Shown here: positions 47,907 to 63,900 of the stretch, piece after piece | Numbering within the stretch: position 1 is the first letter of the stretch | Layout of the letters: each line of letters begins with the position of its first letter | Assembly (NCBI GenBank): GCA_003389385.1 | Contig: QQVM01000017.1 | Coordinates: 136,443 to 200,442 of the forward strand | Origin: Bacteroidota bacterium | GTDB taxonomy: Bacteria; Bacteroidota; Bacteroidia; AKYH767-A; 2013-40CM-41-45 | Length of the DNA: 64,000 nucleotides | Reading direction: 5' to 3' | Notes under the pieces: model-generated | Databases searched by the model: none | What the model was told of the DNA's origin: nothing | What the model saw: only the letters and a program-made list of their open reading frames with translations | Made by a program: the position numbers and the translations under genes

Positions 47907-48962
47907 ATGCTGGTAAAAACTTTCGGCAGCGCCGTTTTCGGAATTAATGCTACCATTATTACAGTTGAAGTCAATCTCAGCAGCGGAGTAAATTACATTT
48001 TAGTCGGATTGCCTGACAACGCTGTAAGAGAAAGCCAGAAGAGAATTGTTGCGGCTTTGAAAAATTGCAATTACTCGTATCCAAAGAGGGAGATTACTGT
48101 GAACATGGCCCCTGCTGACATCAGGAAGGAAGGTTCTTCTTATGACCTGAGTATAGCCATTGGAATTTTGGCTGCGAGCGCCCAGATCAAGGATGATGAG
48201 CTGGATCGCTATGTAATTATGGGAGAGTTGTCGCTCGATGGAACACTTCAACCGGTAAAGGGTGTGCTTCCCATAGCAATTCAGGCAAAAAAAGATGGTT
48301 TTAAAGGGCTTATTCTGCCAATGCAAAATGCCGCAGAAGCAGGAATAGTGAATGGCATTGATGTCTTCGGCATGGAAAAAATTTCTGAAGTAGTGGATTT
48401 TTTCAATGGGGAAAATCACCCTGCGCCGGTGGTGGTTGATGCAGCCGCTGAGTTCAGAAACAACCAGGATAAAACGGAGTTTGATTTTTCTGATGTACGC
48501 GGACAGGAAAATATAAAAAGGGCCATGGAAGTGGCAGCGGCAGGCGGGCATAATATCATTTTGATTGGCCCTCCGGGTGCGGGTAAAACTATGTTGGCAA
48601 GACGTCTTCCGGGCATACTTCCGCCTCTGACTTTGGATGAGGCTCTTGAAACGACAAAGATTCATTCTGTAGCCGGTAAGCTTGGAAAAGATTGTTCATT
48701 GGTTTCTGTACGTCCGTTCAGGGCGCCGCACCATACGATTTCCGACGTGGCCCTGGTAGGAGGCGGAGGTTTTCCTCAGCCTGGCGAGATCTCCCTTGCG
48801 CACAATGGCGTATTGTTCCTCGATGAATTGCCTGAGTTCAAACGAACAGTGCTTGAAGTGATGCGACAGCCACTTGAGGAAAGGACTGTTACAATCTCCC
48901 GGGCTCGCTTTTCAATCGAGTATCCGGCAAGTTTTATGCTCGTGTCTTCCATGAATCCTTGA
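47907..48962 (+). CDS. yifB: YifB/ComM-family Mg-chelatase-like AAA ATPase, truncated at the 3' end
   Basis: YifB/ComM proteins are hexameric AAA+ ATPases; ComM promotes branch migration during natural transformation. The N-terminal Lon-like domain ([15 protein letters not shown]) is followed by Walker A GPPGAGKT (221-228) and Walker B VLFLDE (302-307). The frame ends after residue 351 at SSMNP-stop, exactly where the family continues with the conserved CPCG zinc-binding stretch. About 155 residues, including the C-terminal Mg-chelatase domain and sensor region, are absent. Sequence after the stop is unrelated and leads into accessory genes, so the gene is broken by an insertion, rearrangement or assembly join, not by a point mutation. 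The 3' part is not in this window. Confidence 0.9.
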
Positions 48963-48968
48963 CGTTGC
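48955..48968. other. Junction between yifB and accessory DNA
   Basis: Family similarity is clear through the codons for Met-Asn-Pro (AATCCT), and the next bases TGACGTTG no longer follow YifB. The break lies within a few bases of 48960. No terminal inverted repeat, target duplication or integrase site can be recognised because the other end is outside the window or not identifiable. Confidence 0.55.
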
Positions 48969-49026
48969 GTTGGCCTTTTGGAAATTCGAAATTCGAATAA
49001 AAAGGCAGATTACCCAGAAATTCAAG

Positions 49027-49389
49027 ATGAACCCTAAGACACTTGGAGACCACATCCGTAGGAAACGAATAATGCTCAATCAGCTTCAAAAAGATGTTGC
49101 AGATTGTTTGCAAGTTTCAGAGGATACAATAACCGGATGGGAAAATAATCGAACACAGCCTATGATCCATAACTACCCAAGTATTATAAAATATCTCGGG
49201 TACATGCCAATTTTAGTAAACCAAGATTCCATAGGAGGAAGAATATTTCATTATCGGTGCATCAATGGGATCAATCAGAAAAAGTTGGCGAAACTTGTCA
49301 ACGTGGAAGCTTCAACTGTGGCAAGTTGGGAGAAGGGTGAATTTAAGCCGAATCCAAGGGCATTAAAAAGGCTATTGAAGCTTCTTTAA
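49027..49389 (+). CDS. XRE-type protein with two helix-turn-helix domains
   Basis: A 120-residue DNA-binding protein made of two HTH_3-like units. The first (~residues 4-58) has TLGDHIRRKRIMLNQLQKDV, then VSEDTITGWENNRT with the recognition helix. The second (~68-118) has INQKKLAKLVNVEASTVASW. The TLGDHIRRKR type is frequent in mobile or accessory regions of many phyla (recalled, not searched). ATG 49027 is chosen; the frame is open upstream to a TTG at 48970, next to the yifB break, and the upstream residues could be a remnant of a longer protein. It is the first gene of the accessory region, about 65 bases from the junction. Confidence 0.8.
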   Translation: MNPKTLGDHIRRKRIMLNQLQKDVADCLQVSEDTITGWENNRTQPMIHNYPSIIKYLGYMPILVNQDSIGGRIFHYRCINGINQKKLAKLVNVEASTVASWEKGEFKPNPRALKRLLKLL

Positions 49390-49509
49390 GGAAATTGTAA
49401 AACTTTGTGAATTCATCCTGCAATTGACTTATAATACGTATATTTAGTTAGTAAAGGCTCCAAGCACGAAGTTTGGAGTAAAACAAATACTGGAAAGGAG
49501 AATGGAAAA

Positions 49510-49722
49510 ATGACACCAGGTGAAAATTCAACCAGTGGAAATGAATGGAGTAAAATTGAAAGCCAAAATTTCCATGAAGACGGTGATAGGGGTGCCTCAA
49601 TTCAATCAGACAGGTATTCTGGAGAAAAAGGTTCCAGTGAAAAGGAACAAGAGTATTCCGGAAGAAGTCTTGATAAAGGTACAACCTACGAAGGTGGGCA
49701 TGGTAAGGGTTATAAAAAATAA
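49510..49722 (+). CDS. Small hydrophilic ORF of unknown function
   Basis: A 70-residue Gly/Ser/Glu-rich polypeptide (MTPGENSTSGNEW ... GGHGKGYKK). An AAGGAG lies about 9 bases before its ATG, a rare good Shine-Dalgarno site for this genome, and a strong terminator follows the stop. Low complexity means no fold can be predicted. An overlapping frame, 49520-49729 (GTG start), also looks protein-like (VPQFNQTGILEKKVPVKR), so which frame is real is uncertain. A three-codon ORF (ATG GAA AAA TGA at 49502) precedes it, between the ribosome site and the start. A CTCCAA/TTGGAG hairpin lies about 35 bases upstream. Confidence 0.4.
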   Translation: MTPGENSTSGNEWSKIESQNFHEDGDRGASIQSDRYSGEKGSSEKEQEYSGRSLDKGTTYEGGHGKGYKK

Positions 49723-49740
49723 TTTCTGACCTTGTCTAAA

Positions 49741-49775
49741 AAAAGGGGGTGTGTTTACACTCCCTTTTGCTTTTT
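49741..49775 (+). terminator. Rho-independent terminator after the small ORF
   Basis: AAAAGGGGGTGT (49741-49752) pairs with ACACTCCCTTTT (49757-49768) with one G-T pair and a four-base loop, then GCTTTTT. Its position supports a real transcript ending just before the 144-residue gene. Confidence 0.85.
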
Positions 49776-49790
49776 ATATACTTTAAGTAT

Positions 49791-50225
49791 ATGCTTACTG
49801 TCGATAGTCAAAAAATAAACGCATCTTTACTCAAGAAGATAAGATTTTACCTTGAAAAGGATGAGTTAAATCAGCTCTTGGTGTTTCTTTCTTCCCCACA
49901 AAATTACAACGAAGGTCACTGGTTATTGGGAATTGTTGCTTCACTTACTGAACCAGACCTACCTGATAATCTTAGAAAAGCAAAATTGTTTTTACTAAAA
50001 AGAATTATAAGTATATGTGAATTATTAATTGCAAACAAGCAAGAATTCAACTTTATCACTGCCTTTAGATCAATTGAGGAATCTGATCTATCTCCGGCTA
50101 TACAAAATATCAAAGACTACCTATTTGGAACTATAAGCTTAATCCGGAGTATAGATGTAGCTGAATATGATTTTAGTAATGAAGAAACAAATCAACTCAA
50201 TATTCTAATTTTTAGTAGTCTTTAG
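49791..50225 (+). CDS. Unknown 144-residue helical protein
   Basis: No family recognised. From ATG 49791 the protein starts MLTVDSQKINASLLKKIRFY and is predicted by eye to be almost all alpha-helical and soluble, with Leu/Ile-rich amphipathic stretches (LNQLLVFLSSPQNY, LLGIVASLTEPDLP, AKLFLLKRIISICELLIA). An open extension to 49749 has a hydrophobic start (MCLHSLLLFIYFKY) but overlaps the terminator stem, so it is rejected. It ends in TAG, 41 bases before the convergent ATPase gene. Codon use is AT-rich. It could be an accessory or immunity-type protein, which is a guess. Confidence 0.55.
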   Translation: MLTVDSQKINASLLKKIRFYLEKDELNQLLVFLSSPQNYNEGHWLLGIVASLTEPDLPDNLRKAKLFLLKRIISICELLIANKQEFNFITAFRSIEESDLSPAIQNIKDYLFGTISLIRSIDVAEYDFSNEETNQLNILIFSSL

Positions 50226-50251
50226 ATTTTAACTTGAACAATGGAAAATGG

Positions 50252-50265
50252 GTAAACTAGTTTAC
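50252..50265. repeat. 14-base palindrome between convergent genes
   Basis: GTAAACTAGTTTAC is a perfect palindrome in the 41-base gap, ending just before the ATPase stop codon. No T tail follows, so it is a weak candidate for a terminator or protein-binding site. Confidence 0.4.
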
Positions 50266-50266
50266 A

Positions 50267-53200
50267 CTACGGCTTTGGCTTGTAGATCACCTTTTTAATT
50301 TCTTCTTTCTTCTTTTTAATTTCTTCAGGTGGTAATGGGTTATATTCTACTTTCACTCTATACCCTTTGACTTTAACTTCTGTAGATGCTTCACTAGCAA
50401 TTTGCGAATCGAGGTATTGAAAAAAATATTCCGGTTCAAGGATTAGAATTTTTCCGCGAAGCGATTCGGGAAATGTTTCATCAACTTTTTTTCGAATTCT
50501 CTCAAGTGTTTTTTTGTTAGTGGAACACTCAAGCACTAAATCGTATCCAGCTTTAAGGCATTTCTCAATGTTATGTACTTCCCAATTATCGGTTGTTGTC
50601 ATACACACTTCACATGCAATACGTTTTCCATTCCGCTCAAGGCTTACATCCACTCTTCCATTACTTTCTTTAATGTGTTCTTCGACTGTTGCTTTGTACC
50701 CTCGCGCTTCAGCCATGCGCTTGATGAGCATCTGTAGGTATCGGTGTTCGCTTAATTCCTTTTGGCGCACCAATCCCGCAACCGTTTTTTCGACTTCAGT
50801 TTCCGGAACTTTATTTCTCTTTACCGAAACGGGCTTTTGAGTCTCAACCTCCGGTGTTATTTTTGTCGTTAGCGCAACTGTCGTTTGACTTTGTATTTCT
50901 TTATCGATTTTGTATTCAACGGTTGGTGTAACACTTAAAACTTTTGTTAGGTCTTCGATTTGATTTTTCGGAGTGCCATACTTTTCTCTCGATACATTTA
51001 TTACCTCATCACGTGTTCGTGAAGCAACAAAGTCATCCGACAATTCTGGGAATAGCACTTCAAGATTAAAATCGTATTCCGGCTTTTCGATGCGGCAGAT
51101 CGCTCTGCCTGTTTCCAGCCCTTGCAAGTCCCTCGCTTCAAAGTATGAGAATCCATCTTCGAATTTCTTTGCATCTGTGTCACCCAATCGGAAGCATACA
51201 CGCGTACCAGCATTTGAAATCACTGAACTTGCAAGTTCTGAGTCGGACTTCACAAGCTGTTGCATATCCTGATGCGCGAGGATAAGACCCAAGTGGTACT
51301 TCCTCGCACCTGAAAGAATTGAAGACATCGAAGGCGTGATGAAATACTGAAACTCATCTATGTAAAGGAAAAAGTCTTTCCGTTCCGCTTTGTTCACCGA
51401 TTGCCTCGCCATTGCGGCTTGATGAATTTTAGAAACAATGAATGATCCCAGAAGAAAGCTATTTTCTGCGCCAATTAGCCCTTGCGAGAGCTTAACCAGA
51501 ATAATTTTATCTTCATTCATTGCGGCTTCAAAATCGATGCTTTTTTTCTGCGCCACCATGTTCCGCACAAGCTTTGGCCTGAGAAACGTGTCGAGTCTTG
51601 TGAGGATCGGGCCGATAGAAGTGGACTTCACAATCGGAAACTCTTTCTCCCAATAGTATCGCACGTTAGTATCTGTGACAGATTTTAAAAAAATTTCTCT
51701 GAAGCTTTTTTCGATTAAAAATCGTCTCAAGTCAAAAAGTGTTCCACCATTTAAACTTTCCAGTAATGCAAGTATTGCATTTGAAAAAACGGAATTCATC
51801 TGATCTCCCCAGCTTGTCGAAAGTCTGCGGAAAACTCCGACCAAATCGGAAGCGAGAACTTCTTTTTCGATATCTGAATGTGCGGTGAGAATGTTCAGTC
51901 CAACAGGAAATTCGGAATCGGACGGATCAATGACAATAACATCTTTGTGCCTCTCAGAAGGAATGTTTCCGAGAATGGTTTCTATGAGATCGCCATGAGG
52001 ATCAAGAACGGCAATGCCATTGTTTAGATGTATGTCTTTTAGTATTAGATCGAGAATGAAGGTGGACTTACCTGTACCGGTCGCTCCAATTACGTGCATG
52101 TGCCGGAGACGCTGTTCATTCGAAATTGATACTTCGGTTGTCCTTCCATCATGAGTATTCAATCCAAGTATAAATGGGTGATTGTTTGTAACTGTCGGAG
52201 CACGTTTACTTTTACCTGTGTCCCGCTCAAGTTTGACTGAATGTATGGAGGTAGATGGAAAATGTGCGAGAGTTGAAAGTTCTTTTGCATTTATAAGCAT
52301 GCCCAATCTTCGGGATTGTCGTAAAAGAAAGTCTGAAATGAAGGTGTTAGCATCAATATTCTCAAGTGACAATGGTATAAGTTTGTTTAATCCAGACTCA
52401 GAAAACAATATCAAGTGATTAGAAACTCTATCAAGCAATCTTTCTGCTTCATAATTGTTGTCTGCAACGCAAAGTAGACGAATGACACAACTAAACAATG
52501 GTGAAGAAATTTTCTCTCTTGCTGCGGGGAGCATTTCGGGTGCATCCAAGAAGAAATCTCTTCCTTCACAATCAGTAACTGAGTTTATTATACTAGTGGT
52601 CCATGGATTTTCAGTAGCTTTAAATAGAATCTGAATGCAAACTTGTTCACCTTGTCTTAAATTGTCGAGTGTTCCAAAGAGTCCGGTGTACGGATCTATG
52701 TCAAAATTCTTCGGAACCAATAGCGGTCGCATGAACTCTTCTGCAAGACCAAAGTCTCTCCCAATAATTATTGAGTCGTCCGTAAGATTATTTAATAACA
52801 AATCGTTTTTTGTTTGGATGACTGCGGACGGGAAGAACGCTTTTACTTGTGCTTTTAAATGTGGAACATTGAATGTACTGCTGACAAATTGAATTCTGAT
52901 TAAAGTACACGTTGCAATAATTTCAAACGAAACATTACTCTCACCTAATGAGAGCAAGGTGAGCAATTGCTCCATTTGTGTTGCTGTGACCTTTTCTCCT
53001 TTGGGAAGAGAAACAGTCACTATCTCAAGAGGCGCATTGAGGTTATACAAAAAAGGTTCACGGACAAATACTTCTTTTTCCGGAACTTGCTTCTTTTTCT
53101 GTTTGAATAATTCTCCAAGATAACTGAAGAGCGTGTGACGTTTGCCATCGTCAACATACTCATTGTTATTGAACCTGAAAAAGAATGGCGCGAAAGGGGG

Positions 53201-53299
53201 CTCAAGGTCAACCGGTGACTCGTATAATTTCCAGCCACGTCCCCATGTTTCCCACTCATAGAATTGTCGAGTGAGTGCTTCGATTTGAGACTCTGCCAT
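50267..53299 (-). CDS. VirD4/HerA-like DNA-translocase ATPase with C-terminal nuclease-like domain
   Basis: A 1010-residue cytoplasmic protein. The N-terminal ~390 residues are unassigned and beta/alpha mixed. The ATPase core has Walker A IGATGTGKSTF (405-413), VLDPHGDLIE with the coupling-protein Asp-Pro-His-Gly motif, VIDPSDSEFP, Walker B FFLYIDEFQY (645-651) and LAHQDMQQL, as in type IV secretion coupling proteins and DUF87/HerA ATPases. A Pro/Thr/Val linker leads to a C-terminal alpha/beta domain (~845-960) with GRVDVSLERNGKRIACEVC: Asp884 and Glu897 align with a PD-(D/E)xK core, but the Lys of ExK is Cys899, so nuclease activity is doubtful. No relaxase or mating-pair genes are nearby. 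It is 8 bases downstream of a membrane-anchored partner. Confidence 0.82.
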   Translation of the reverse strand: MAESQIEALTRQFYEWETWGRGWKLYESPVDLEPPFAPFFFRFNNNEYVDDGKRHTLFSYLGELFKQKKKQVPEKEVFVREPFLYNLNAPLEIVTVSLPKGEKVTATQMEQLLTLLSLGESNVSFEIIATCTLIRIQFVSSTFNVPHLKAQVKAFFPSAVIQTKNDLLLNNLTDDSIIIGRDFGLAEEFMRPLLVPKNFDIDPYTGLFGTLDNLRQGEQVCIQILFKATENPWTTSIINSVTDCEGRDFFLDAPEMLPAAREKISSPLFSCVIRLLCVADNNYEAERLLDRVSNHLILFSESGLNKLIPLSLENIDANTFISDFLLRQSRRLGMLINAKELSTLAHFPSTSIHSVKLERDTGKSKRAPTVTNNHPFILGLNTHDGRTTEVSISNEQRLRHMHVIGATGTGKSTFILDLILKDIHLNNGIAVLDPHGDLIETILGNIPSERHKDVIVIDPSDSEFPVGLNILTAHSDIEKEVLASDLVGVFRRLSTSWGDQMNSVFSNAILALLESLNGGTLFDLRRFLIEKSFREIFLKSVTDTNVRYYWEKEFPIVKSTSIGPILTRLDTFLRPKLVRNMVAQKKSIDFEAAMNEDKIILVKLSQGLIGAENSFLLGSFIVSKIHQAAMARQSVNKAERKDFFLYIDEFQYFITPSMSSILSGARKYHLGLILAHQDMQQLVKSDSELASSVISNAGTRVCFRLGDTDAKKFEDGFSYFEARDLQGLETGRAICRIEKPEYDFNLEVLFPELSDDFVASRTRDEVINVSREKYGTPKNQIEDLTKVLSVTPTVEYKIDKEIQSQTTVALTTKITPEVETQKPVSVKRNKVPETEVEKTVAGLVRQKELSEHRYLQMLIKRMAEARGYKATVEEHIKESNGRVDVSLERNGKRIACEVCMTTTDNWEVHNIEKCLKAGYDLVLECSTNKKTLERIRKKVDETFPESLRGKILILEPEYFFQYLDSQIASEASTEVKVKGYRVKVEYNPLPPEEIKKKKEEIKKVIYKPKP

Positions 53300-53307
53300 T
53301 GCGAAAA

Positions 53308-53835
53308 CTATTTGGCATTAGTCGGCATTCGCTCCTGTTCGGTGAGTGCTCGCAATCCTTTAGCGGTTGTAATTTGATCAATAGCATCCATAACACTAAG
53401 TCGTACACTGCCTTTAAACATCGCCTCAGTATCCATTTGGAAAAATGTTTTCTTCTTCGAATTTTTTCCGAGAATGGTATTTAGTATCGGGATTCGTCCG
53501 ATGACACTTCGATCCGATTCACCAAGCCACCACGACACGAAAAAGTCTGTTCCAAATGGGGCAGCGCAAATGTCAAAGATGTACTCGTCACGGGAAATAC
53601 GTAAATACTCTCGTTTAGCGGAAATCAATCCAGTTTGATAGTGAGTAACTCTAGCTATTGAGATTCCTGGGATCTCATGTTTCTTAATTTCTTCTTCAAC
53701 TTTTTGATAAAATTCTTGTGTTGAAATTTTAAAGAATGAAAAGCTATGTTGCCATTTAGACAATGGAGTAATAGGGGTCTTCCAAATTGAATATATTATC
53801 AATCCGAGAATGATAATGATTATAATGTAAATCAT
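53308..53835 (-). CDS. Membrane-anchored partner of the VirD4-like ATPase
   Basis: A 175-residue protein with one N-terminal transmembrane helix (MIYIIIIIILGLIIYSIW) and a soluble domain of about 150 residues. The domain contains VEEEIKKHEIPGISIARVTH, EYLRISRDEYIFDICAAPFG and FFVSWWLGE, with no recognised motif. It ends in TAG 8 bases before the ATPase start, so the two are certainly one transcript and probably one complex, with this protein placing the ATPase at the inner membrane (inference). I know of no experimentally studied relative. The upstream 384 bases hold no gene, so its promoter should be there. Confidence 0.7.
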   Translation of the reverse strand: MIYIIIIIILGLIIYSIWKTPITPLSKWQHSFSFFKISTQEFYQKVEEEIKKHEIPGISIARVTHYQTGLISAKREYLRISRDEYIFDICAAPFGTDFFVSWWLGESDRSVIGRIPILNTILGKNSKKKTFFQMDTEAMFKGSVRLSVMDAIDQITTAKGLRALTEQERMPTNAK

Positions 53836-54219
53836 TTTTTTACTCTTTTAAATGTTACGGTTATCTTGTATGAGCAATCCGCGCATTAAAATTCTTTGTT
53901 AAAAATTTAACGTAATACTGCTTATAATTGTCTCACAATTCTAGTTGCAAAAAATATCATGAAGCATTGGCGGTTTTGGTAAATGCTGAGTTAGAGCTTG
54001 AATTTTCTAATTAATATGTCGAAGCATAAGCTGCATCCTCTCTTATCCTCTAATGGTCTTATCGTATCTATATGCATTATAACTTTAATCTCAATCAGTT
54101 CTTATCATATTTGATTGTTTTATTAATTATTTGTTCTTAATATGATGGATTTAATTTCTCATTACAAAATAACTATACAAATTTCTATTAGTTATTGAGG
54201 ATAGGAATTCAATTTTATA
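53836..54219. other. AT-rich intergenic region in the island
   Basis: 384 bases with no ORF of note on either strand and a marked rise in A+T compared with the ATPase gene. One inverted repeat GTTAAA-aa-TTTAAC (53898-53911) is visible, about 65 bases upstream of the membrane-partner gene. No exact TAnnTTTG box was found for that gene. Otherwise I see nothing in it. Confidence 0.5.
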
Positions 54220-56157
54220 TTAAATTAGTCGGTCAAACTTAATTGAAGAATAATCACTCAGTTCAATAATATCAAAACCTTCATCGGCTTTATTTAATGG
54301 ATCATATTTTGATAATCCTTTAAAGTTAAGTCGTGTTTTCTTTTCAATATGTTCAATTGACACTTGAAAGGTTTTAAACCGTCCATATTTAAAGTCAACT
54401 GTTTCTCCCAAATCACCAAGCAGATTATTTTGGCTGAGTAAATAACCGGTTGCCCATAGTTTTTTTCCGGTTACTATCACAATAACTTTCCAAAACTCTT
54501 TTGGAATAGGGACACCCCGATATATTTTATCTCTGTCAGTGAAAACGGGTCCGGTAAATACATTTACTTTAAATTCCATGTTTCTTGCATTGTCCAATAT
54601 GTAATTTTCAAGACCTTGCCAGGTTTGTTTGTTCTGATTCAAATCCTTGTGTTGTGGACAGCAATTTGTGTAATGAAAAGTATCTTCATTAGCAATTGAT
54701 GCTTCACTTCTCGTAGCACCCCATACAGGGTCTTCTCTTCTGGTCATATGGCCACGATCCAAATCATTTCCTTTATACAGTTTATTATCGATCTGATATT
54801 TGCTTGGTATTCGATTATCAATGTACCAAGTGTCATTTTTTCGAGGGATTTTATACCATTGTGAACCATTAATATTGCAAGCACTAAAAATTGGAAGTCG
54901 CCTGCTTTTGCTCATAACAACACTAAAATGTTCGTATTTTAATTCGTATTTATTCCTGTTAGTTCTGTGTTCCTTATCAAGTTCTACAACGTCATTTTTT
55001 AAAGTATAGCTTCTAAAATCTGGCAAAGGAACCTTAAAACCTGAGCCTAAATGCGAACCAATATATCCGGAAGGATCAGTCTTTCTTTTTGTCACAGAGC
55101 TTACCTTTTCTTTGACTGTATTGTAGGAGGTGCTTACGCTTTTTACTGCGTAAGATTTTTTAATGTTTTTGAGTAGGTCAATGATCGTATTAATCTTTAC
55201 TGCATAATTTGTTTGTTTGAATCGTCCTCCAAAATGTAATCCAACTGCTTGCCCGGATAAAATATCTACAATCGCTGAACCGGAATTTCCACCCAAAGTT
55301 GAGCAATCGTGATGAAAAATAAAATTTGATGCAGATTTACTATACATCATGATCTGACCTGGCTGTAATCTTTTGACATTGTAAATATCTCCAAATATTT
55401 TCTCCATTACTGATTCATCGTTTCTTCTTCCATCTCTAGCTGGATATCCGATAGTGCACACATAGTCATCTTTTTCAATTCCTTTGAGTTTTAAATTTAA
55501 AGGTTCGGGTAAATACTTAGATTTTTTAAGTTTAAGAAAAGCTACATCCGGAATTTTATCTCCTGGTTTTGAGATGTATAATATTTTTTCAATAAGATAT
55601 TCTAGAGGACTGGTGCTTTGTCTGTATTCTTCCCTAAAATCTACTTTTGCTTTTATGGTATCTCCATCTGGATTTACTTTAAATACAAATTGTTTTCCCT
55701 TACTAAAACCAAATTCCATTGCAACGTGCCTGTTTGTTACAATCACATCTTCAGTGATATGCCATCCTGTGCCTACCCATGGAAAATCCGGATGACCATG
55801 AAGTTCAATTCTGCCGACACCTTTTATAGCCTTTCTGATTAAATTTCTGGTTGGCATTAATCGAGCATTCCATTCATCACTTTCTGCAACTACAAAATCA
55901 TCCTTTTGAATGAGTAGAGCAGGACGTCCAAATTCTGCGATGATTGCTTCAGTATAAGGACGTGTTAATACACCATCCACATCTTTATTATCGACTGCAT
56001 CTTTGATTACATCACCAACTACACCCCACTGTTTCGATTTCACTGTACCACCGTAACGTTTTACCTTGTTTGAAATCTCGGACATAACAGGTATATCATT
56101 CATAAGAGATTCAATGTACTCCTGGTTCATTGATTTTTGTTTGTTAACAGTTGCCAT
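54220..56157 (-). CDS. Trypsin-like protease fused to DNA/RNA non-specific endonuclease
   Basis: A 645-residue protein with two complete enzyme domains. Residues ~110-335 are a trypsin-like serine protease: His144 (VTNRHVAME), Asp204 (KIPDVAFLKL) and Ser292 (LGGNSGSAIVD). Residues ~385-640 are a NUC1/EndoG-type endonuclease: the DRGH motif at 467-470 (DLDRGHMTRRED), metal-ligand Asn507 in HKDLNQNKQTW, and Glu517. No signal peptide or transmembrane helix is seen, so the nuclease would be cytoplasmic and must be held in check, possibly by the protease or by the first ~105 residues, which match no domain I know. Such fusions fit a toxin or defence effector (inference). It lies alone in AT-rich DNA, 123 bases from the next gene. 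Confidence 0.88.
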   Translation of the reverse strand: MATVNKQKSMNQEYIESLMNDIPVMSEISNKVKRYGGTVKSKQWGVVGDVIKDAVDNKDVDGVLTRPYTEAIIAEFGRPALLIQKDDFVVAESDEWNARLMPTRNLIRKAIKGVGRIELHGHPDFPWVGTGWHITEDVIVTNRHVAMEFGFSKGKQFVFKVNPDGDTIKAKVDFREEYRQSTSPLEYLIEKILYISKPGDKIPDVAFLKLKKSKYLPEPLNLKLKGIEKDDYVCTIGYPARDGRRNDESVMEKIFGDIYNVKRLQPGQIMMYSKSASNFIFHHDCSTLGGNSGSAIVDILSGQAVGLHFGGRFKQTNYAVKINTIIDLLKNIKKSYAVKSVSTSYNTVKEKVSSVTKRKTDPSGYIGSHLGSGFKVPLPDFRSYTLKNDVVELDKEHRTNRNKYELKYEHFSVVMSKSRRLPIFSACNINGSQWYKIPRKNDTWYIDNRIPSKYQIDNKLYKGNDLDRGHMTRREDPVWGATRSEASIANEDTFHYTNCCPQHKDLNQNKQTWQGLENYILDNARNMEFKVNVFTGPVFTDRDKIYRGVPIPKEFWKVIVIVTGKKLWATGYLLSQNNLLGDLGETVDFKYGRFKTFQVSIEHIEKKTRLNFKGLSKYDPLNKADEGFDIIELSDYSSIKFDRLI

Positions 56158-56280
56158 GACATTACTTTGTTTGAGCCTACTCTTCTTAGGATTTTCAGCT
56201 GCCTCCTGTATTTAATAGAATTAATATTTATTAATTTATCAATGTATTACTGTTTTATAGATTTCGAAAAACAAGTACAT

Positions 56281-57615
56281 TTAGTCTTTTTTAGATATCA
56301 GCGCATCTCCAACTTTTGATAAATTAATTGATTTCGTAATAAATAGGTTAAAATAAGGTTTTGCCTTGGCATAAACACCTTTAAACTCTCCTCCAACTCT
56401 CAACCCTAGATTATTTTCAGTAAACTGAAAATAAAAACTATAGAATCCATATTTAGTTGTCTTATCATCATGCCAGTACATTCCTAAAGGAGTAGATTTA
56501 ATAAAAACCTTGTAGTTTACACCGCTCATTGAATATTGGAAGGTTATGAAGCCCCAATATTTGTCTACAAAATCTTCTGTTGTTTGATCTAATGCTAAAA
56601 TTTTAGTATTTAATTCTGTTTTATTGATGTAAATAGTATCTGAAGCACTATTGGTATATGAATATTCTGTTATTGCTTTTCTTAACAACACTTCAAAATC
56701 AAAAGGTGTAACTGAAAAATATCGATTATGTTTTGGTTTTGAATTTAGATTAACACTAATTGTAATTGGAAGAGACATAACTAATCCATAATTATCAAAT
56801 CTCTTTGTTGTCTTTTGTGATCCAAATGTTCGATTTATACGTAAAGAGTCATTATTGTATATTGCTGATACCTTATAATATTCCTGCTCCGGTGTGGTTT
56901 GAATTAAAGTAGTGAATCTATTTTGATAGACAGCGCCATATATGCCAATCTTCTTAAAAGGCTTCCATGTCTTACTTTTAAATAATGAAGAGATGGTATC
57001 GAAAACAATCGGATCAAAAAAACTAATCCTGCCATAGAATGAAAGTTTATCAGCTCCATCAGCCAAATCTAGATTTGTACCAATAGCCAATGACACTTGA
57101 TCTGATGTGCTTTTTGTTTGCGAAACATTTTCCGATGTACCAGGTGATTCCGTGGATGAGATGGCCTGAACTATAATTGTACTCTGTATTTCATCGCTAT
57201 GTGAATTAGTAAAATGTTTTTTAACTGTAAATTTAAAAAGTTTGTTTTGATTATTATAGAATGTTGTATCAACTAAGACATACCCTCTAATAAATTTTGA
57301 AATTGTGTCATTTAAAATAAATTCTAGACTATCAATGGCAATCAGATCATTAAAAAGGATTAATTTCTTACTATCTGGAAATGTCAACGTATCAATAGTA
57401 ATTTTTAAAATAACATCTTTTATTGATGAGTTATTTAGTGGTTTAATTGCTTTTATAGGAATGTCAAAGTAATTCTTTGATTTATTATTCAATTCTAAAA
57501 CAAATTGGGTTGGTGCAATAACTATGGCTTTGCTTGAATCAACTTCAATACTCTTAGAGAATTTGAAAAAAATAATAAGTGGGAGGGTTAGTAATAGCTT
57601 AAAGCAGATATTCAT
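56281..57615 (-). CDS. Exported protein of unknown function
   Basis: A 444-residue protein with a signal peptide from ATG 57615 (MNICFKLLLTLPLIIFFKFS). The open frame to 57702 runs through the terminator hairpin of the upstream gene and is not used. An N-terminal beta domain (residues ~20-130, with FVLELNNKSKNYFDIPIKAI) looks Ig-like. A linker rich in Ser/Thr follows, then a region with alternating strands (GRISFFDPIVFD, GIYGAVYQNRFTTL, KYGFYSFYFQFTENNLGLRVGG) like an outer-membrane or beta-sandwich protein. No family was recognised. Base composition is AT-rich like its neighbours. It sits 123 bases upstream of the trypsin-endonuclease gene, with no sign of co-function beyond location. Confidence 0.6.
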   Translation of the reverse strand: MNICFKLLLTLPLIIFFKFSKSIEVDSSKAIVIAPTQFVLELNNKSKNYFDIPIKAIKPLNNSSIKDVILKITIDTLTFPDSKKLILFNDLIAIDSLEFILNDTISKFIRGYVLVDTTFYNNQNKLFKFTVKKHFTNSHSDEIQSTIIVQAISSTESPGTSENVSQTKSTSDQVSLAIGTNLDLADGADKLSFYGRISFFDPIVFDTISSLFKSKTWKPFKKIGIYGAVYQNRFTTLIQTTPEQEYYKVSAIYNNDSLRINRTFGSQKTTKRFDNYGLVMSLPITISVNLNSKPKHNRYFSVTPFDFEVLLRKAITEYSYTNSASDTIYINKTELNTKILALDQTTEDFVDKYWGFITFQYSMSGVNYKVFIKSTPLGMYWHDDKTTKYGFYSFYFQFTENNLGLRVGGEFKGVYAKAKPYFNLFITKSINLSKVGDALISKKD

Positions 57616-57650
57616 TTTATTACTATTTATTTGATTATTTATATGTTGTA

Positions 57651-57689
57651 AAAACAACCGGCACAGCCGTCTGCGTACGGCTGCACCGG
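57651..57689 (-). terminator. Terminator after the six-cysteine protein gene
   Basis: On the minus strand a 13-base arm CCGGTGCAGCCGT pairs with ACGGCTGTGCCGG (two internal mismatches, six-base loop) and is followed by TTGTTTTT. It lies about 70 bases past the stop of the 82-residue gene. Confidence 0.75.
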
Positions 57690-57757
57690 ATATTAATGAC
57701 AAAGAGATATTGATTTTATATGCATGAAAACAACTCTTAATTTGAATAATATTTGAC

Positions 57758-58006
57758 TTAATAAGTTTGATAAAGATGGCTTATACATCTTCTGCATACA
57801 GATCTTCCTATGGATGCACAGGAAGTTCTTGCCTGAGTTTCAGAATAGCATTCAAACAGATTGCCTGCATTTTCAGATTTACTCATTTTCTCGCATATAG
57901 ATAAGGATGCCGAGTCGCATTTGTTTGTAAGTGTTCTTTTGCTTACAAACAAGTGAAGTTCTTCAGTATCTTCTTTTTGTTTCAATGAATAGAGATCTGT
58001 ACTCAT
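57758..58006 (-). CDS. Small six-cysteine protein, possible modified-peptide precursor
   Basis: 82 residues, no family recognised. The N-terminal third is charged and helix-prone (MSTDLYSLKQKEDTEELHLF). The rest is rich in Ser, Thr and Cys, with six cysteines at 30, 38, 53, 63, 71 and 74, ending SIGRSVCRRCISHLYQTY. There is no signal peptide or GG cleavage site. A charged leader-like half plus a Cys/Ser/Thr core is what a ribosomal peptide precursor can look like, but no maturation enzyme lies nearby. Its final GRSVCRRC resembles GRPCPPDC near the end of the 106-residue protein. It follows the 36-residue ORF by 24 bases and ends at a terminator, so the pair is probably one short transcript. 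Confidence 0.55.
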   Translation of the reverse strand: MSTDLYSLKQKEDTEELHLFVSKRTLTNKCDSASLSICEKMSKSENAGNLFECYSETQARTSCASIGRSVCRRCISHLYQTY

Positions 58007-58030
58007 CAGTGTAATTCTAAATTCAGATAT

Positions 58031-58141
58031 TTAATCTTTAGCTGAGTCGTTTGCAATTCTCACATATGGGTTTACCTCCGGTTCCTTCTCTTCGGTTTTC
58101 CTTCTCGATATTGTTACTTTCTGTACGTTGATTGTTGTCAT
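58031..58141 (-). CDS. 36-residue small ORF
   Basis: ATG at 58141, stop at 58031. The peptide begins MTTINVQKVTISRRKTEEKE and ends YVRIANDSAKD; it is charged, with no cysteine and no signal. It lies 24 bases upstream of the six-cysteine gene on the same strand and 98 bases downstream of the 14-base box. Nothing like it is recognised. Support comes from position, a proper ATG and ordinary codons; it could still be a non-coding leader. Confidence 0.4.
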   Translation of the reverse strand: MTTINVQKVTISRRKTEEKEPEVNPYVRIANDSAKD

Positions 58142-58238
58142 GATGTACATTTTGTTTGATAGAATGAAAGGGTGCTACTTTTGCCGTGATGCGTAATTTT
58201 ACATGCAATGAAAAGCATTAAAATATTAAAAAACTATA

Positions 58239-58252
58239 GTACAAATACGGGA
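58239..58252 (-). promoter_or_regulatory. 14-base conserved box, copy 1
   Basis: The minus strand reads TCCCGTATTTGTAC, 98 bases before the 36-residue ORF start and downstream of the response-regulator gene. The identical 14-mer occurs at 60802-60815, both in non-coding DNA around the signalling module. It is a candidate binding site for the LuxR-type regulator (inference). Confidence 0.5.
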
Positions 58253-58339
58253 AATAAAGTCCTGAGAGAAAAGAAGCGAAAAATATTTAGCCAAAGCTTC
58301 TCTGATCTGACGAAGAAAAAATCTAAAAAAAGGAATATG

Positions 58340-59020
58340 TTAAATCTTTGGAAAAAGTTTGTTCTTAATAATTTCATCATCAAGTATGCCGTGTTCAATT
58401 GCATATTTTATAACCCCGGCTAGGTTTTTAGACTTTGAAAGGTTAGTTATTTCCTGCCGATATTCGTCAATTGTTCTTTTACTTAAATTCATGATGTCAG
58501 CAATCTCCTTTGAAGTTTTTTCATGACATAATAGGTAAATTATCTGGTTCAGTTTTTCTTCATGTGCAGTATATTTATTTTGCTTTTTATTTGGTCTATT
58601 TTCAGCAATATTTGTAAATACCAGAATTTGCTCTGAAAAGAATTTTCCGCCATTCATCACAGTTTCTAATGCTTTAATAATTTCTTCTGTTTCTGCATTC
58701 TTTAGTATGTACCCGGTAGCACCTTTTTGTATCATATCCAGTACATACCTCCGGTCTGAAAACATAGATAGTCCAATAACTTTGGATTTATATCGGTTCT
58801 TAATTATTTCAGTAGTAGCAATGCCGTCCATTGGTTGCATTCGAATATCCATTAATACTACATCAAAGTGGCGTGAACTTAAAATTTCTAATACTTCTTT
58901 TCCATTGGATGCCTGTTGAATTTCGCCTACAATATCAAGACTGTTTAATAAAGCAAACAATCCATGTCTGAATAATGGATGGTCATCCGCGATGATAACA
59001 CTGATTTTTTTCTTCTTCAT
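58340..59020 (-). CDS. NarL/LuxR-type response regulator
   Basis: A 226-residue two-component response regulator. The receiver domain (~5-120) has the acidic pair Asp12-Asp13 (IIADDHPLFRHG), phosphorylation site Asp58 (VVLMDIRMQPMDG) and Lys107 (GYILKNAE). The C-terminal LuxR helix-turn-helix (~150-215) has LLCHEKTSKEIADIMNLSKRTIDEYRQ, slightly unusual in reading DEY where many relatives read EVH/VHR. Its ATG overlaps the stop of the kinase gene by one base (TAATG), so the two are translationally coupled and form a cognate pair. The likely targets are genes near the 14-base boxes. Confidence 0.93.
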   Translation of the reverse strand: MKKKKISVIIADDHPLFRHGLFALLNSLDIVGEIQQASNGKEVLEILSSRHFDVVLMDIRMQPMDGIATTEIIKNRYKSKVIGLSMFSDRRYVLDMIQKGATGYILKNAETEEIIKALETVMNGGKFFSEQILVFTNIAENRPNKKQNKYTAHEEKLNQIIYLLCHEKTSKEIADIMNLSKRTIDEYRQEITNLSKSKNLAGVIKYAIEHGILDDEIIKNKLFPKI

Positions 59021-59766
59021 TAAATCCGAAATTCAAATTTAAAATATGCTCCCGTTTCGAATGAATCTGAAAACCGGATAATATTTCCATTTAAAAACTT
59101 AACCCTGTTAGAAATATTGGATAAACCCAGTCCGGCATTCTCGGCAACCTTGTTCTCAGATTTGCCGTTGTCGGAATATTCTAATTCAAGGATTGATGCA
59201 TTTTTAATCAGATTGATAGTTATTCTGTCACAGTTAGAGTGTTTAACAGAATTATTGATCAGCTCTGATACTATTCTGAAGATGCATATCTGAAAAGAGT
59301 CAGAGAATTGGTATTGATTGCAATTTTCATTGAATTGAAATTTTACATTTTTATGTTTTTCGAACAAAGAGATAGTTTCTTTTATACCTTCAACAAGACC
59401 AATTTTAGCCAACATTTGTGAAGATAGATTTCTGGAAGTAGTCCGAATATTGCTAATGACTTCATTCAATCCTTGCTTTATATCAATGAGATCCTGGCAT
59501 AAATCATTGTTGAGTTCTGATTCTATTTTCTGAATATTCAATTTGATTGCCGAAAGCCGAGGACCGATTTCATCATGCATATCTTCCGCAATTCTGTTTC
59601 TTTCGTATTCCTGAGTTGAAATCATAGTGTCCCTGATCTGAATTTCTCTTTCATTCCGGATTTTGATATTTCTAAAGAGTACACCCGTAAACAATGCAAT
59701 GAACAGGAGTGAACTGACTGAAAATATCAGGATTAATAGGATAAACTTTTCTTGGGTATGGAACAT
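59020..59766 (-). CDS. NarL-family sensor histidine kinase
   Basis: A 248-residue kinase with one N-terminal transmembrane helix (~8-33) and no extracellular sensor domain of its own. The HisKA_3 dimerisation domain has His64 in EDMHDEIGPRLSAIK. The HATPase part has ELINNSVKHS, LEYSDNGKS and AGLGLSNISNRVKFL. It overlaps the end of the polytopic membrane protein gene by 34 bases and shares a base with the response-regulator start. The sensing function is therefore probably supplied by the membrane protein (inference). This arrangement, a short kinase of the DesK/LiaS type beside a 7-helix protein, recurs in Bacteroidota (recalled, not searched). Confidence 0.92.
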   Translation of the reverse strand: MFHTQEKFILLILIFSVSSLLFIALFTGVLFRNIKIRNEREIQIRDTMISTQEYERNRIAEDMHDEIGPRLSAIKLNIQKIESELNNDLCQDLIDIKQGLNEVISNIRTTSRNLSSQMLAKIGLVEGIKETISLFEKHKNVKFQFNENCNQYQFSDSFQICIFRIVSELINNSVKHSNCDRITINLIKNASILELEYSDNGKSENKVAENAGLGLSNISNRVKFLNGNIIRFSDSFETGAYFKFEFRI

Positions 59767-60383
59767 ATAAAGCCGATTGAGAAAAATATATTTGTGATAA
59801 TAGCGATAATATTGTGTACTACCCAGGTTAATTGCATTCCCATTGTAGAATCATCAAATACCCATGTCGCAGTTGAGAATATAACCAATGTTAATCCGAA
59901 GTAAAATAATAAACCGGTTAAAATCCAAAATGTTGAATCTTTCAGAAGAGATTTTTGATAGCTAGAAGAGTAATTTAAGAGCGTTAGACCACAGCCAAGT
60001 ATCATTAAAGTTCCTTTGATGAATTTATCTCCTGAATTGAATTCAAAGAGGTTACTTAAATGAAAGTTAGAATAAATCCAAGTCATCATATAAGTTAAAA
60101 GTAGTCCTAAAAGTAAATATCTGAGTCTTCTTGAATCTGAAGTTTTGATTAGAAATGCGGTTATCAACACAGCTTCTGCTATTGTAAAAATATTTATTAA
60201 CCAGATATTATTTAAGTGATAATTGGCCAGTAGCCATAAACCAGATTCAGTAAGTAGGGATAAGATGATGTAATAAAAAAATAATTTTATTGACTTTGAG
60301 AAATGTCTATAGGCATAAATCCCGATCAGACCAGGAAGAAAAGCAACAGATAAATTCAGGTATTTTACTATTTCTTCCAGCAT
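59733..60383 (-). CDS. Polytopic membrane protein, probable sensor partner
   Basis: A 216-residue integral membrane protein with about seven hydrophobic helices and very short loops. It starts MLEEIVKYLNLSVAFLPGLI and ends IGFICSIPKKSLSY. Apart from one charged loop (NLFEFNSGDKFIKG), nothing soluble is present. No enzymatic motif is seen and no family can be named with confidence. It overlaps the sensor kinase gene by 34 bases, which strongly implies a joint complex. A GGGG/CCCC hairpin (60388-60404) lies just before its ATG and might limit translation. It is 50 bases downstream of the 106-residue protein gene. Confidence 0.75.
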   Translation of the reverse strand: MLEEIVKYLNLSVAFLPGLIGIYAYRHFSKSIKLFFYYIILSLLTESGLWLLANYHLNNIWLINIFTIAEAVLITAFLIKTSDSRRLRYLLLGLLLTYMMTWIYSNFHLSNLFEFNSGDKFIKGTLMILGCGLTLLNYSSSYQKSLLKDSTFWILTGLLFYFGLTLVIFSTATWVFDDSTMGMQLTWVVHNIIAIITNIFFSIGFICSIPKKSLSY

Positions 60384-60433
60384 ACTAGGGGTTATAGAAG
60401 CCCCAATTTATGCAGAAATTTCAATATTTAGAG

Positions 60434-60754
60434 CTAACTGTTTAGAATATTATCTCTCCCACAATCTGGTGGACAAGGTCTACCTAAATCTATACATACA
60501 TAGTCATCACCGATCTGGTCATCCTCATTTTCAAATACCCCTACTATCACTAAGCTTTGCTTGTTTTCCTTGTTTATTCCAAAGTAAGCTCTGATGCCAA
60601 CACTTCCCTCTTGATCGAGTAATTTGCGAATAGCATCTTTTCCAAAGAAGAGGCCTTTAATATCTCCTTCAGACATAGACTCACGGTATCTTTTTGTTTG
60701 ATCAGCTCCTTCTGCAAAGGAAATTTCATGATTTTCAGTTCCTGTAAATGACAT
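60434..60754 (-). CDS. 106-residue Bacteroidota small protein
   Basis: A soluble 106-residue protein starting MSFTGTENHEISFAEGADQT with a helix (TKRYRESM) and a middle GLFFGKDAIRKLLDQEGSVG, then two strands (GIRAYFGIN, SLVIVGVFENE). It ends IDLGRPCPPDCGRDNILNS with Cys87, Cys94 and Cys98. I recall similar unnamed proteins in Bacteroidota, usually ending in a PCPPxCG motif; function is unknown. It is the first gene of the signalling operon. It has an exact -7 box and a copy of the 14-base box upstream, so it may be autoregulated. Its start and stop (TAG) are unambiguous. Confidence 0.7.
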   Translation of the reverse strand: MSFTGTENHEISFAEGADQTKRYRESMSEGDIKGLFFGKDAIRKLLDQEGSVGIRAYFGINKENKQSLVIVGVFENEDDQIGDDYVCIDLGRPCPPDCGRDNILNS

Positions 60755-60772
60755 AATTTTTTAAGTTTTCCG

Positions 60773-60780
60773 CAAAGGTA
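60773..60780 (-). promoter_or_regulatory. -7 box for the signalling operon
   Basis: The minus strand reads TACCTTTG, an exact TAnnTTTG match 18 bases before the ATG of the 106-residue gene. The upstream TTTG spacing (15) is shorter than usual, and the 14-base box lies about 22-35 bases further upstream. Confidence 0.45.
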
Positions 60781-60801
60781 AATCTAAAATAAATACAAAA
60801 G

Positions 60802-60815
60802 TCCCGTATTTGTAC
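60802..60815 (+). promoter_or_regulatory. 14-base conserved box, copy 2
   Basis: TCCCGTATTTGTAC on the plus strand is identical to 58239-58252. It lies 113 bases before the plus-strand adhesin gene and in the divergent region of the 106-residue gene. A TAnnTTTG-like sequence (GAATTTTG) follows about 17 bases later, a spacing at which an activator bound here could contact polymerase. The right side also forms a CCCGTA-tttg-TACGGG hairpin. Confidence 0.5.
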
Positions 60816-60928
60816 GGGGAATTTTATTAAAGAATTTTGTTTATCTATGCAGATGAAATTAATAAGCATCTGTGACAATCTTTCAGAATCAATTTAAATC
60901 AAATTTAATTTTTAAAAAAACAATAAAC

Positions 60929-63900
60929 ATGAAGCTAAAATCTATCTCTTTAGTGTATTTACTTTTAATTTCTTTACTTACAGTACAAAACTGCTTTGCA
61001 TCTGGTACATCTTGTCCTAATAGTCATGCCGTTTCCATAGATACAAATGCAGTATATAATTCATTGAATTTACAAGATTCCGTATTTTGGTTTTCATTCA
61101 ATGGGAATAGAGATAGCTGTCGTTTTAGTATTAGAGAAAATATTAATAACATAAACGCGTTAGCAATTTATAAAATTGAGTTATTTAAAGGAAATTGCAC
61201 AAACTTAATTAGTATGGATTCCATTTTATTTAATGGAAATGACTCTTTAAATGAATATTATTTTAACTTTAGAAATATACAGCAAGGACAAAATTATTAC
61301 CTGATATTACATCGACTTTCAAATTCAAATTCTATAGCTGATTTTGAGATCTCTGATATTTCCATTCCATGTAATTCTTCTTGTGTAGCAAACTGCAATT
61401 TGATTGCTAATGGCGATTTTTCATTTTATACTACTGGCAGTATTACTAGCCCATTTAATCCTATTAATGGTCAGGTATGTTGTTGGACAGCAGCTTGGGG
61501 TACGCCACAAATACAAGAAATTTCTGGAAACAAATATGCAAGGCTATGGACACAATCCATCCAACCAATCTTTCCTGGCCCAATACTTCAATACGGTGAA
61601 GGCGTAATTACAAATACTCCAATTTCAATTTCTACAAATCATATTTATTTATTAAATTATTCCATAAAAGTTGAAAGTGCAAGTCCTGGCAATATAAACG
61701 GCCCTCCATTAGATCTATTTTTCATCGGTTTATTAGATAATGCTACTTCGGGCCTACCTACACCAACTTATAGTACTGGTGAGATTATTCCTACATTTAA
61801 TGGTGAAAATATCGATGTACAAACTAATTTAAATAATGTAAATTGGGAATCCAAAAGTGTATGTTTTTCACCTTTACAAAATTCTGATAGACTTTATTTT
61901 TACCCAAGGCATAATACATTTTATAGTTTAAGCTCCTTTCCGAATTATGTTAATGTAGATAATATAATGCTTTATCAGTTAGATTACAATGCTCAGATCA
62001 ATACTGCGTGTGGAAACAGTACAACAATTGGCCCTTGTGATATAAATGCAAATTCCGGTTTAAATCTTGTATCTTACCTGTGGTCTCCTGGGGGAGCAAC
62101 AACCGCACAAATTACAGTTAGTCCGACTTCTACCACCACTTACACTTTAACTACCCATGTTAATTCACCTCCCGCTACGGCCTCTTGTGATGTGATAAGT
62201 ACCTACATAGTAAATGTGAGTGGTGGTATTTCTGTGAACATTACTCCGAGCAATCCAGTGTTGACATGTTCAAATAGTTCAATCACTCTCAATGCAGGAA
62301 GCGGATTCACAAGTTATCAATGGTCAGGCCCGATTTCAGGAAGCTCTCAAACACTTAACGTTAATTTGCCTGGCGTTTATACAGTAATTGTTACATCGCC
62401 TACTTGCACTTCAAGTGCGAGTGTTACAGTTTTACAAAACAATTCATCGCCTTCGATTTCAATTTCATCCAGTTCAAATGATATTTGTAGTGGACAAAAC
62501 ACTGGTGTAATACTTACCGCTGATTGTCCTGATTGCAATTCTTTCATATGGAATTTATCTGGAATCCAGAATCAACAGATTACTGTTTATCCAACTACAT
62601 CAACAACTTATACGGTTACAGGTATAGCAGCCAATGGGTGTACATCTAGCGCATCAACTACAATTTCTGTATTTCCTTCGGGACTTACAACACCACAAAT
62701 TGTTGGCTCTACTTCTAACTGCGCCTCTGCACCAAATGCAACATTTCAATACATCAATGCAAATTGGCTTTCACAATATGATGGATATTATAATTGGACA
62801 TTATTCAATTCTTCCGGAGGTGATATAAGTTCTGCATTAGGTTATCCTACAAGTACAAATGAAATTGTTGAAATACATTGGCCAAATCCTAACCAGAGCG
62901 GAATATTAGTTTTGAACTTTGGTTTACCAGGGTGTCAAAAGTCTGATACAATTTACATTCAAGAATGTTGCGAGGAAGGTATAACTCAAGTCTTCTATGA
63001 TGGAAATACTGTGGATGATATGACTTCTGGGAATTCTATTACAGCTAATGATATTGTCATTAACGGCACATTCATTATTAACAGAGATTTTGCTTTTATC
63101 AATTGTCGTGATATTAGCTTTGCACCTGGCGCCAGACTATTAGTTAAATCCGGAATTGTTCTTACTATTGAGAATTCTGTATTAAGGCCCTTTGTTGAAT
63201 GTTGTAAAATGTGGAAGGGCATTTACGTTGAAACTAATGGCAAAATACTTTTTACTGGAAATGAAATACATCAGGCTGAACATGCAATTCATGTAGTGGA
63301 TAAATGCTCCTTTCTTATAAGAGATTCTGAATTTAAAAATAATTATGTTGGAATGTATGCAGGTGATATTGGCACTACGAGTGTAACCGGGTTAATTGAG
63401 AATACAAGATTTACTTCGATGCCATATAACTGTGAACCGGGTTTAGGTCAATATTATTATAATTTTGTAGACAGGTATCTTGGACAAAAAACAGCTACCG
63501 GAAATCGCCCATTTGCCGGAATAGAATTAAAAAATGTTTCTTATATAAGAATAGGTAATTCTTTAAATACACCAACTGGAAATATTAATTTTGATAATCT
63601 TTCAAACGGTATACTATCTGATAATTCAAATGTTTATATTGATAATTGTACATTTGACAAAATACTTCCTGTTTGGAATTATTCTAACTCATTGTTGAAC
63701 GTGAACGGATGCGCTGTTCGTTCAAACAGAAGTACAATTAATTTTACCGGCCTGGGTGGTTTATCTACATCTCCTCATACTATTAAAGAATGTCAATATG
63801 GAGTGGCATTATTATCCTTGTCTACAGGGCTAGTTCGGCAAGTTCATACGAATCCACTAACCAGATATGGGATATATGTTCGCTTTTCTAGAGATGTTCA

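Follow-up and report, generated by a model that had tools for sequence, protein, structure and literature searches.

Two genes for a TrwB-like ATPase and a small partner as a candidate DNA-transfer module of serine-integrase islands, one of which splits comM in a Bacteroidota genome

We investigated a 64,000-nucleotide stretch of the genome of a Bacteroidota bacterium (GCA_003389385.1, contig QQVM01000017.1, positions 136,443 to 200,442; hereafter the window), in which two adjacent genes encode a large ATPase, P1, and a small partner protein, P2. The pair lies inside an island that splits the natural-transformation gene comM. On balance, we favour the view that P1 and P2 are the DNA motor of a family of islands that carry a large serine integrase, many of them inserted in comM, and have a coupling-protein-like role in the transfer of these elements, transfer itself being the part that we infer. 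This role appears the most likely one because the association with the integrase is constant, the cargo varies and the motor of P1 is kin to ATPases encoded beside MOBC-type relaxase genes. The two genes are as follows.

50267 to 53299, minus strand: P1, 1010-residue ATPase (open reading frame (ORF), Pfam, alignment of 48 sequences, AlphaFold, VIA-align and profile hits)
53308 to 53835, minus strand: P2, 175-residue partner (ORF; gene order in homologous loci, model and hydropathy)

An earlier note, made from the letters of this DNA alone, had described the two ORFs as a stand-alone pair and proposed a search for their conservation. Their coordinates, lengths and the 8 bp between them are all as it gave. 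A scan of genome contigs yielded 67 homologous loci, spread over Bacteroidota, Verrucomicrobiota, Acidobacteriota, Planctomycetes, Patescibacteria and one Desulforudis metagenome-assembled genome, and P2 accompanies P1 in 61 of them (four of the six exceptions are contig ends), which bears out the idea of a conserved two-gene pair. Cultured carriers of such loci include Chitinophagaceae LGM1, Pedobacter frigiditerrae, Niastella vici and Sediminibacterium ginsengisoli. Among the first-pass loci in which both genes were called, 55 of 57 have P2 immediately upstream of P1, mostly at a spacing of -4 to +23 bp; L027, L041, L043, L060 and L081, where P1 is truncated or at a contig end, were left out of upstream neighbourhood counts. 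The flanking cargo differs between elements while the P1-P2 pair stays constant. As the two genes are almost always found together in the island family, they are probably part of how the islands move.

The term stand-alone does not hold, since the integrase lies in the flanks and co-occurs with P1 across genomes, making the pair a core module of serine-integrase islands. By tblastn, the same integrase family is present within 10 kb of P1 in 35 of the 67 loci, at a median distance of 395 bp, and a comM half is found in the flanks of 18. In a survey of 247 Bacteroidia genomes, using thresholds of E<=1e-150 for P1 and E<=1e-60 for the integrase, P1 was detected in six genomes and the integrase in seven, and all six genomes with P1 have the integrase (hypergeometric 2.4e-11, if genomes are taken as independent and with relatedness uncorrected). 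Distance matrices gave correlations that still contain shared host ancestry, with r values of 0.71 for P1 and integrase, 0.57 for P1 and P2 and 0.91 for P1 and a short P1-like ATPase described below; none of 1000 shuffles was as high. Three P1 copies occur within about 70 kb in one genome (G159:C5:39472-111495) and two in another (G131:C1:834499-890533), in both cases with integrases; in G131 both copies and one integrase carry stops. Both sets are clustered or tandem islands with decaying members.

The island in the window and its ends are defined by the following features (C1 is the contig of the window in its genome, G000).

47907 to 48962, plus strand: N-terminal 351 codons of comM, cut at ...SSMNP; left flank of the island
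48970 to 49389, plus strand: double helix-turn-helix (HTH; Cro/C1-like) gene, left end of the island; the same family stands at the comM end of other copies
48963 to 64000, no strand: part of the island within the window, continuing to G000:C1:~227520
C1:226045-227490, plus strand: 481-residue large serine integrase, abutting the C-terminal part of comM; right end of the island

The left boundary is a TG at window positions 48960-48961. The C-terminal half of comM is located outside the window at G000:C1:227.5-228.0k, where the sole Mg_chelatase_C domain of the genome (G000:C1:227682-227975) directly follows the integrase. Because comM resumes right after the integrase at C1:~227520, the island measures about 42.1 kb (C1:185402 to about 227520), its right end lying 27 kb past the window. 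The N-terminal part of comM was matched in 37 of the 41 genomes searched. In 33, including G001 of the same genus, the frame runs to about 500 codons or beyond; it is short in G000 (363 codons), in G004 (355) and in two further genomes (307 and 429). Related elements occupy this comM position in G004, with the C-terminal comM end in L012 and the N-terminal end in L014. In a further contig of this genome (L013), the integrase gene runs directly into the left-end HTH gene, and this junction joins sequences resembling the right and left ends of the G000 island. L013 shows the two ends joined, as they would be in a circle or between tandem copies. With comM split here, intact in relatives, and the L013 junction, the island has the integrase and the defined ends at a specific site that mark an integrative element. 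A palindromic attachment core, considered as an explanation for the two gene-order orientations at comM, was dropped; the shared core looks like TG. Mobile elements that interrupt comM, AbaR among them, are known (PMC4774983, PMC11472951) and share with these islands the insertion in comM and, in some cases, defence genes; AbaR elements are Tn7-like, whereas the islands use a large serine integrase and P1-P2.

P1 can be divided into three regions.

residues 1-370: N-terminal domain, of which about 125-370 is common to Bacillota plasmid DUF87 ATPases
residues 361-764: TrwB-like motor with an all-alpha domain (VIA-align)
residues about 838-972: PD-(D/E)xK-like domain, with H852, E873, D884, E897, N910 and K913

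Coupling-protein motifs had been noticed in the ATPase before, and Pfam matches to TrwB_AAD_bind (1.9e-12), DUF87 (2.1e-6) and TraG-D_C (2.3e-5) confirm them; TrwB_AAD_bind is matched by all 48 members of the P1 family that were aligned, and these show little or no variation at their Walker A and B residues. An AlphaFold model built from the 48 sequences (predicted local distance difference test (pLDDT) 86.8) was superimposed with VIA-align on TrwB of R388 over 363 residues (Z 31.2, root-mean-square deviation (rmsd) 3.3), and also on the VirB4 protein TrwK over residues 85-772, at high rmsd. As modelled, the motor is VirD4/TrwB-like, with the all-alpha domain, and closer to that class than to HerA; the earlier label "VirD4/HerA-like" is right in its first half, the Z of 31.2 and the all-alpha domain speaking against the second. 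P1 shares with VirD4-type coupling proteins this motor and the conserved Walker motifs, and differs in its 370-residue N-terminal domain, the extra C-terminal domain and the separate small P2. A PDB profile search with the N-terminal domain gave nothing meaningful, and three P1 homologues match HTH_17.

The nearest relatives of P1 among Bacillota plasmids are DUF87 ATPases of conjugative-type plasmids (Peribacillus, B. subtilis, S. clausii), homologous to P1 over residues ~125-757, part of the N-terminal domain included (profile E 1.4e-8 to 3.2e-19). In all four cases inspected, a replication-relaxation (PF13814) gene lies directly downstream of the ATPase gene, followed by conjugal-transfer genes. 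On an Embleya plasmid, too, the ATPase gene and a replication-relaxation gene follow in this order, which was not seen in a Streptomyces, a Bradyrhizobium and a Thermococcus relative. In contrast to P1, the Bacillota plasmid ATPases have neither the C-terminal nuclease-like domain nor P2 by profile search. PF13814 has been treated as a MobC relaxase superfamily, and class 8 of the streptococcal integrative mobilizable elements combines VirD4, a MobC (PF13814) relaxase and a serine integrase (PMC5357655). The islands share with that class the compact plan of an integrase and a VirD4-like coupling protein, and three Verrucomicrobiota members share PF13814 as well; they differ in mostly having no relaxase gene, in the nuclease-like domain on the motor, in their larger size and rich cargo, and in their occurrence in several phyla.

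These three members (L053, L057 and L079) are the only ones of the 67 with a PF13814 (MOBC-type) gene in the flanks, where it clusters with P1 and the integrase, on the upstream side; the clusters of L057 and L079 also contain a primase-like gene, and that of L079 contains ArdC. The earlier note had named consistent relaxase and mating-pair neighbours as the sign of an ordinary conjugation module; such neighbours are not consistently present, PF13814 being limited to these three flanks and no mating-pair gene being recognised in the scans made. Its statement that conjugation genes, relaxase and VirB4 included, are missing next to the pair agrees with what we found in the window and in the examined parts of the island beyond it. 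No mating-pair family was recognised in the window or the island ORFs examined, so the mating-pair apparatus that an integrative conjugative element carries for itself is not seen here.

We then turn to the C-terminal domain of P1, which is present in 66 of the 67 loci. The earlier note had read it as a nuclease-like tail with a PD-(D/E)xK core, and the structure prediction it called for agrees: the predicted elements follow the order alpha-beta-beta-beta-alpha-beta (helix 840-865, strands 869-875, 882-889 and 892-898, helix 904-916, strand 921-925), which in the model is a PD-(D/E)xK topology, and E873, D884 and E897, together with H852, are invariant (48 of 48). The same note had observed that the lysine of the ExK motif is replaced by Cys899. 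A cysteine is indeed found at E897-V-C899, as one instance of a family-wide substitution: position 899 is Ser in 27 of the 48 sequences, Cys in 12 and a few other residues in the rest, with no Lys among the residues listed. K913 and N910 are each conserved in 47 of 48, and K913, on the helix after the E897 strand, may by its position stand in for the missing lysine. The site is not evidently dead, since the substitution at 899 is family-wide and Lys913 is almost invariant on the next helix, and from these residues P1 may be a nuclease. Weak Pfam matches of the tails lean towards PD-(D/E)xK families (CoiA_nuc in 9 of 46, SfsA in 6, Mrr_cat in 4, PDDEXK_9 in 3 and NERD in 2), mixed with unrelated ones, and a PDB profile search with the domain gave no meaningful hit. 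MOBC relaxases (TraX of pAD1, MobC of CloDF13) are related to restriction endonucleases (PMC12857230). They have a PD-(D/E)xK-type catalytic domain, which P1 may share, and serve systems that use VirD4-like coupling proteins; they are separate proteins with a winged HTH. The P1 tail was compared with PF13814 as a possible MOBC relaxase domain, and the profiles lent this candidate no support (hhalign probability 2.8 at full length and 0.5 trimmed).

P2 has one N-terminal hydrophobic helix (residues 2-18), followed by a small alpha/beta domain (model pLDDT 92.5). The single N-terminal membrane helix described earlier is therefore correct for this protein and is not a constant of the family: one or two membrane segments, N-terminal or mid-protein, are predicted in 37 of 49 homologues and none in the other 12. 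P2 gave no match above noise in Pfam, NCBIfam, PADLOC or PHROG and nothing meaningful in a PDB profile search. Fold comparison gave a mixture of weak matches (KA1, TBP-like and DcrB/BamC-like, Z at most 8.3), therefore no function was drawn from them. P1 and P2 presumably make contact.

Taken as a transfer module, the system would operate as follows. The integrase would excise the island as a circle, P2 would hold P1 at the membrane, and P1, as the coupling protein of the element itself, would pump island DNA towards a recipient. The C-terminal domain of P1 might nick, trim or recognize the element DNA, and nicking, an envelope channel or both would be supplied by a helper element or an unrecognised component. 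The most probable identity of the island is an integrative mobilizable element that encodes a coupling protein of its own and also carries anti-phage cargo.

Several observations weigh against this proposal. Canonical VirD4 has N-terminal transmembrane segments, whereas no membrane segment is predicted in P1 by hydropathy (marginal internal segments occur in 6 of 48 homologues). Unlike VirD4 coupling proteins, P1 is not encoded with relaxase or mating-pair genes in G000: neither a relaxase of PF03432 or PF13814 nor a VirB4 of PF19044 was found anywhere in the genome, and no relaxase was recognised in the island ORFs examined, relaxase families beyond PF03432 and PF13814 being covered through Pfam scans of selected ORFs. 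Most Bacteroidota elements are likewise without a recognised relaxase. PF03432 occurs in 19 of 38 P1-bearing genomes, and could be placed near P1 on the same contig only in G156, about 18 kb away (an approximate figure, as contig numbering could not always be matched). Finally, the closest PADLOC match of P1 is a defence ATPase, mad8 (2.4e-19), over motor residues 398-733 only. A bolder version of the proposal, in which P1 is coupling protein and nicking enzyme in one and, with P2 as anchor, replaces a separate relaxase and moves the islands by an undescribed route, seems to us unlikely; as the PF13814 gene and the P1 tail coexist in the three Verrucomicrobiota loci, a simple replacement of the relaxase by the tail is argued against.

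The earlier note had left the choice between a defence and a transfer system, of which transfer is now favoured, defence being possible and less supported. In a defence system against phages or plasmids, P1-P2 at the membrane would load on invading DNA and pump it into its own nuclease domain, much as in HerA-nuclease systems, and the pair would be one weapon among several of a defence island. The architecture of motor plus nuclease fits such a role, P1 and its short paralogue both match mad8, the island also bears Shedu, a STING-domain protein and a protease-nuclease fusion, and defence systems are often found on other elements that interrupt comM (PMC11472951). P1 shares its ATPase superfamily with HerA-nuclease systems and with mad8 of MADS; the mad8 match covers the motor only, and PADLOC scans of 14 island proteins revealed no MADS component other than the mad8-like match. 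Against defence, the pair is constant where cargo varies, it tracks the integrase, its nearest Bacillota relatives reside in conjugation operons beside MOBC-type relaxase genes, and its motor fold is nearer to TrwB than to HerA. We consider it improbable that defence is the function of the pair.

Also improbable, and ranked next, is a role as an accessory of element maintenance or recombination, in which P1-P2 would act on the DNA of the island within the cell, during excision, segregation or conflict with tandem copies, much like an FtsK-type translocase and without intercellular transfer. The frequent placement of the pair immediately before the integrase gene, the HTH_17 matches, the clustered copies of G159 and G131, and a host devoid of PF03432, PF13814 and PF19044 would all suit this explanation. 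Against it, serine integrases are not known to need a motor, homologues of P1 occur in conjugation operons, and ArdC, joined in some loci by genes for a primase-like protein and a MOBC-type relaxase, suggests transfer. A terminase-like packaging motor that loads island DNA into helper-phage particles is very improbable: the ATPase and nuclease-like domain on one chain and a weak similarity of motor residues to a PHROG terminase (2e-9) are outweighed by the TrwB/VirB4-like fold, by phage records that match the ATPase core only, and by the lack of a recognised capsid gene and of any relative in a pattern scan of IMG/VR viral contigs.

The P1-P2 pair serves as a marker for a family of mobile islands that is patchily spread over several phyla and would escape searches based on relaxases. 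It also opens to experiment the question of how elements in which no relaxase or mating pore is recognised are moved. No description of this family was found in the literature searched, nor any direct match for MADS mad8 or for comM/serine-integrase elements of Bacteroidota. Splitting of comM may lower natural transformation of the host while the island brings anti-phage genes, a combination that fits the view of intragenomic conflict (PMC4774983, PMC11472951).

Next to P2, and elsewhere on the island, two further features were delimited (L009 and L010 denote stretches of the G000 genome).

54220 to 56157, minus strand: fusion of a trypsin-like protease and a DNA/RNA non-specific endonuclease (Trypsin_2 and Endonuclease_NS), adjoining P2
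L010:3764-5008, minus strand, and L010:5271-6899, plus strand (G000:C1:208763-211898): short ATPase and second serine recombinase

The protease-endonuclease fusion is variable cargo, with no counterpart found in the flanks of the 67 other P1 loci, and looks like a protease-regulated nuclease effector. The short ATPase (414 residues, motor only) is P1-like, and its gene and that of the second serine recombinase diverge, next to RadC. Divergent pairs of this kind recur in L013, L014, L018, L029 and L034, and a short ATPase immediately precedes P2-P1 in six P1 loci. The short ATPase may be a second motor that these elements carry. The island further encodes the anti-phage protein Shedu (SduA, PADLOC 6.2e-62; L010:8993-10231, minus strand) and a prokaryotic STING-domain protein (PF20300, 3.3e-15; L010:1323-1919, plus strand, corresponding to G000:C1:206322-206918), among whose scanned neighbours no CD-NTase was recognised. 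A MetRS-like protein (568 residues), a 316-residue protein, ThiF and YcaO are encoded together at L010:14219-19207, a possible peptide-modification cluster. Other island genes include those for a CoiA-like protein, ArdC and RadC, and a 1589-residue beta-helix protein with a Por secretion-system sorting domain (L009:12315-17084, plus strand), whose gene starts near window position 60872 and crosses the window end.

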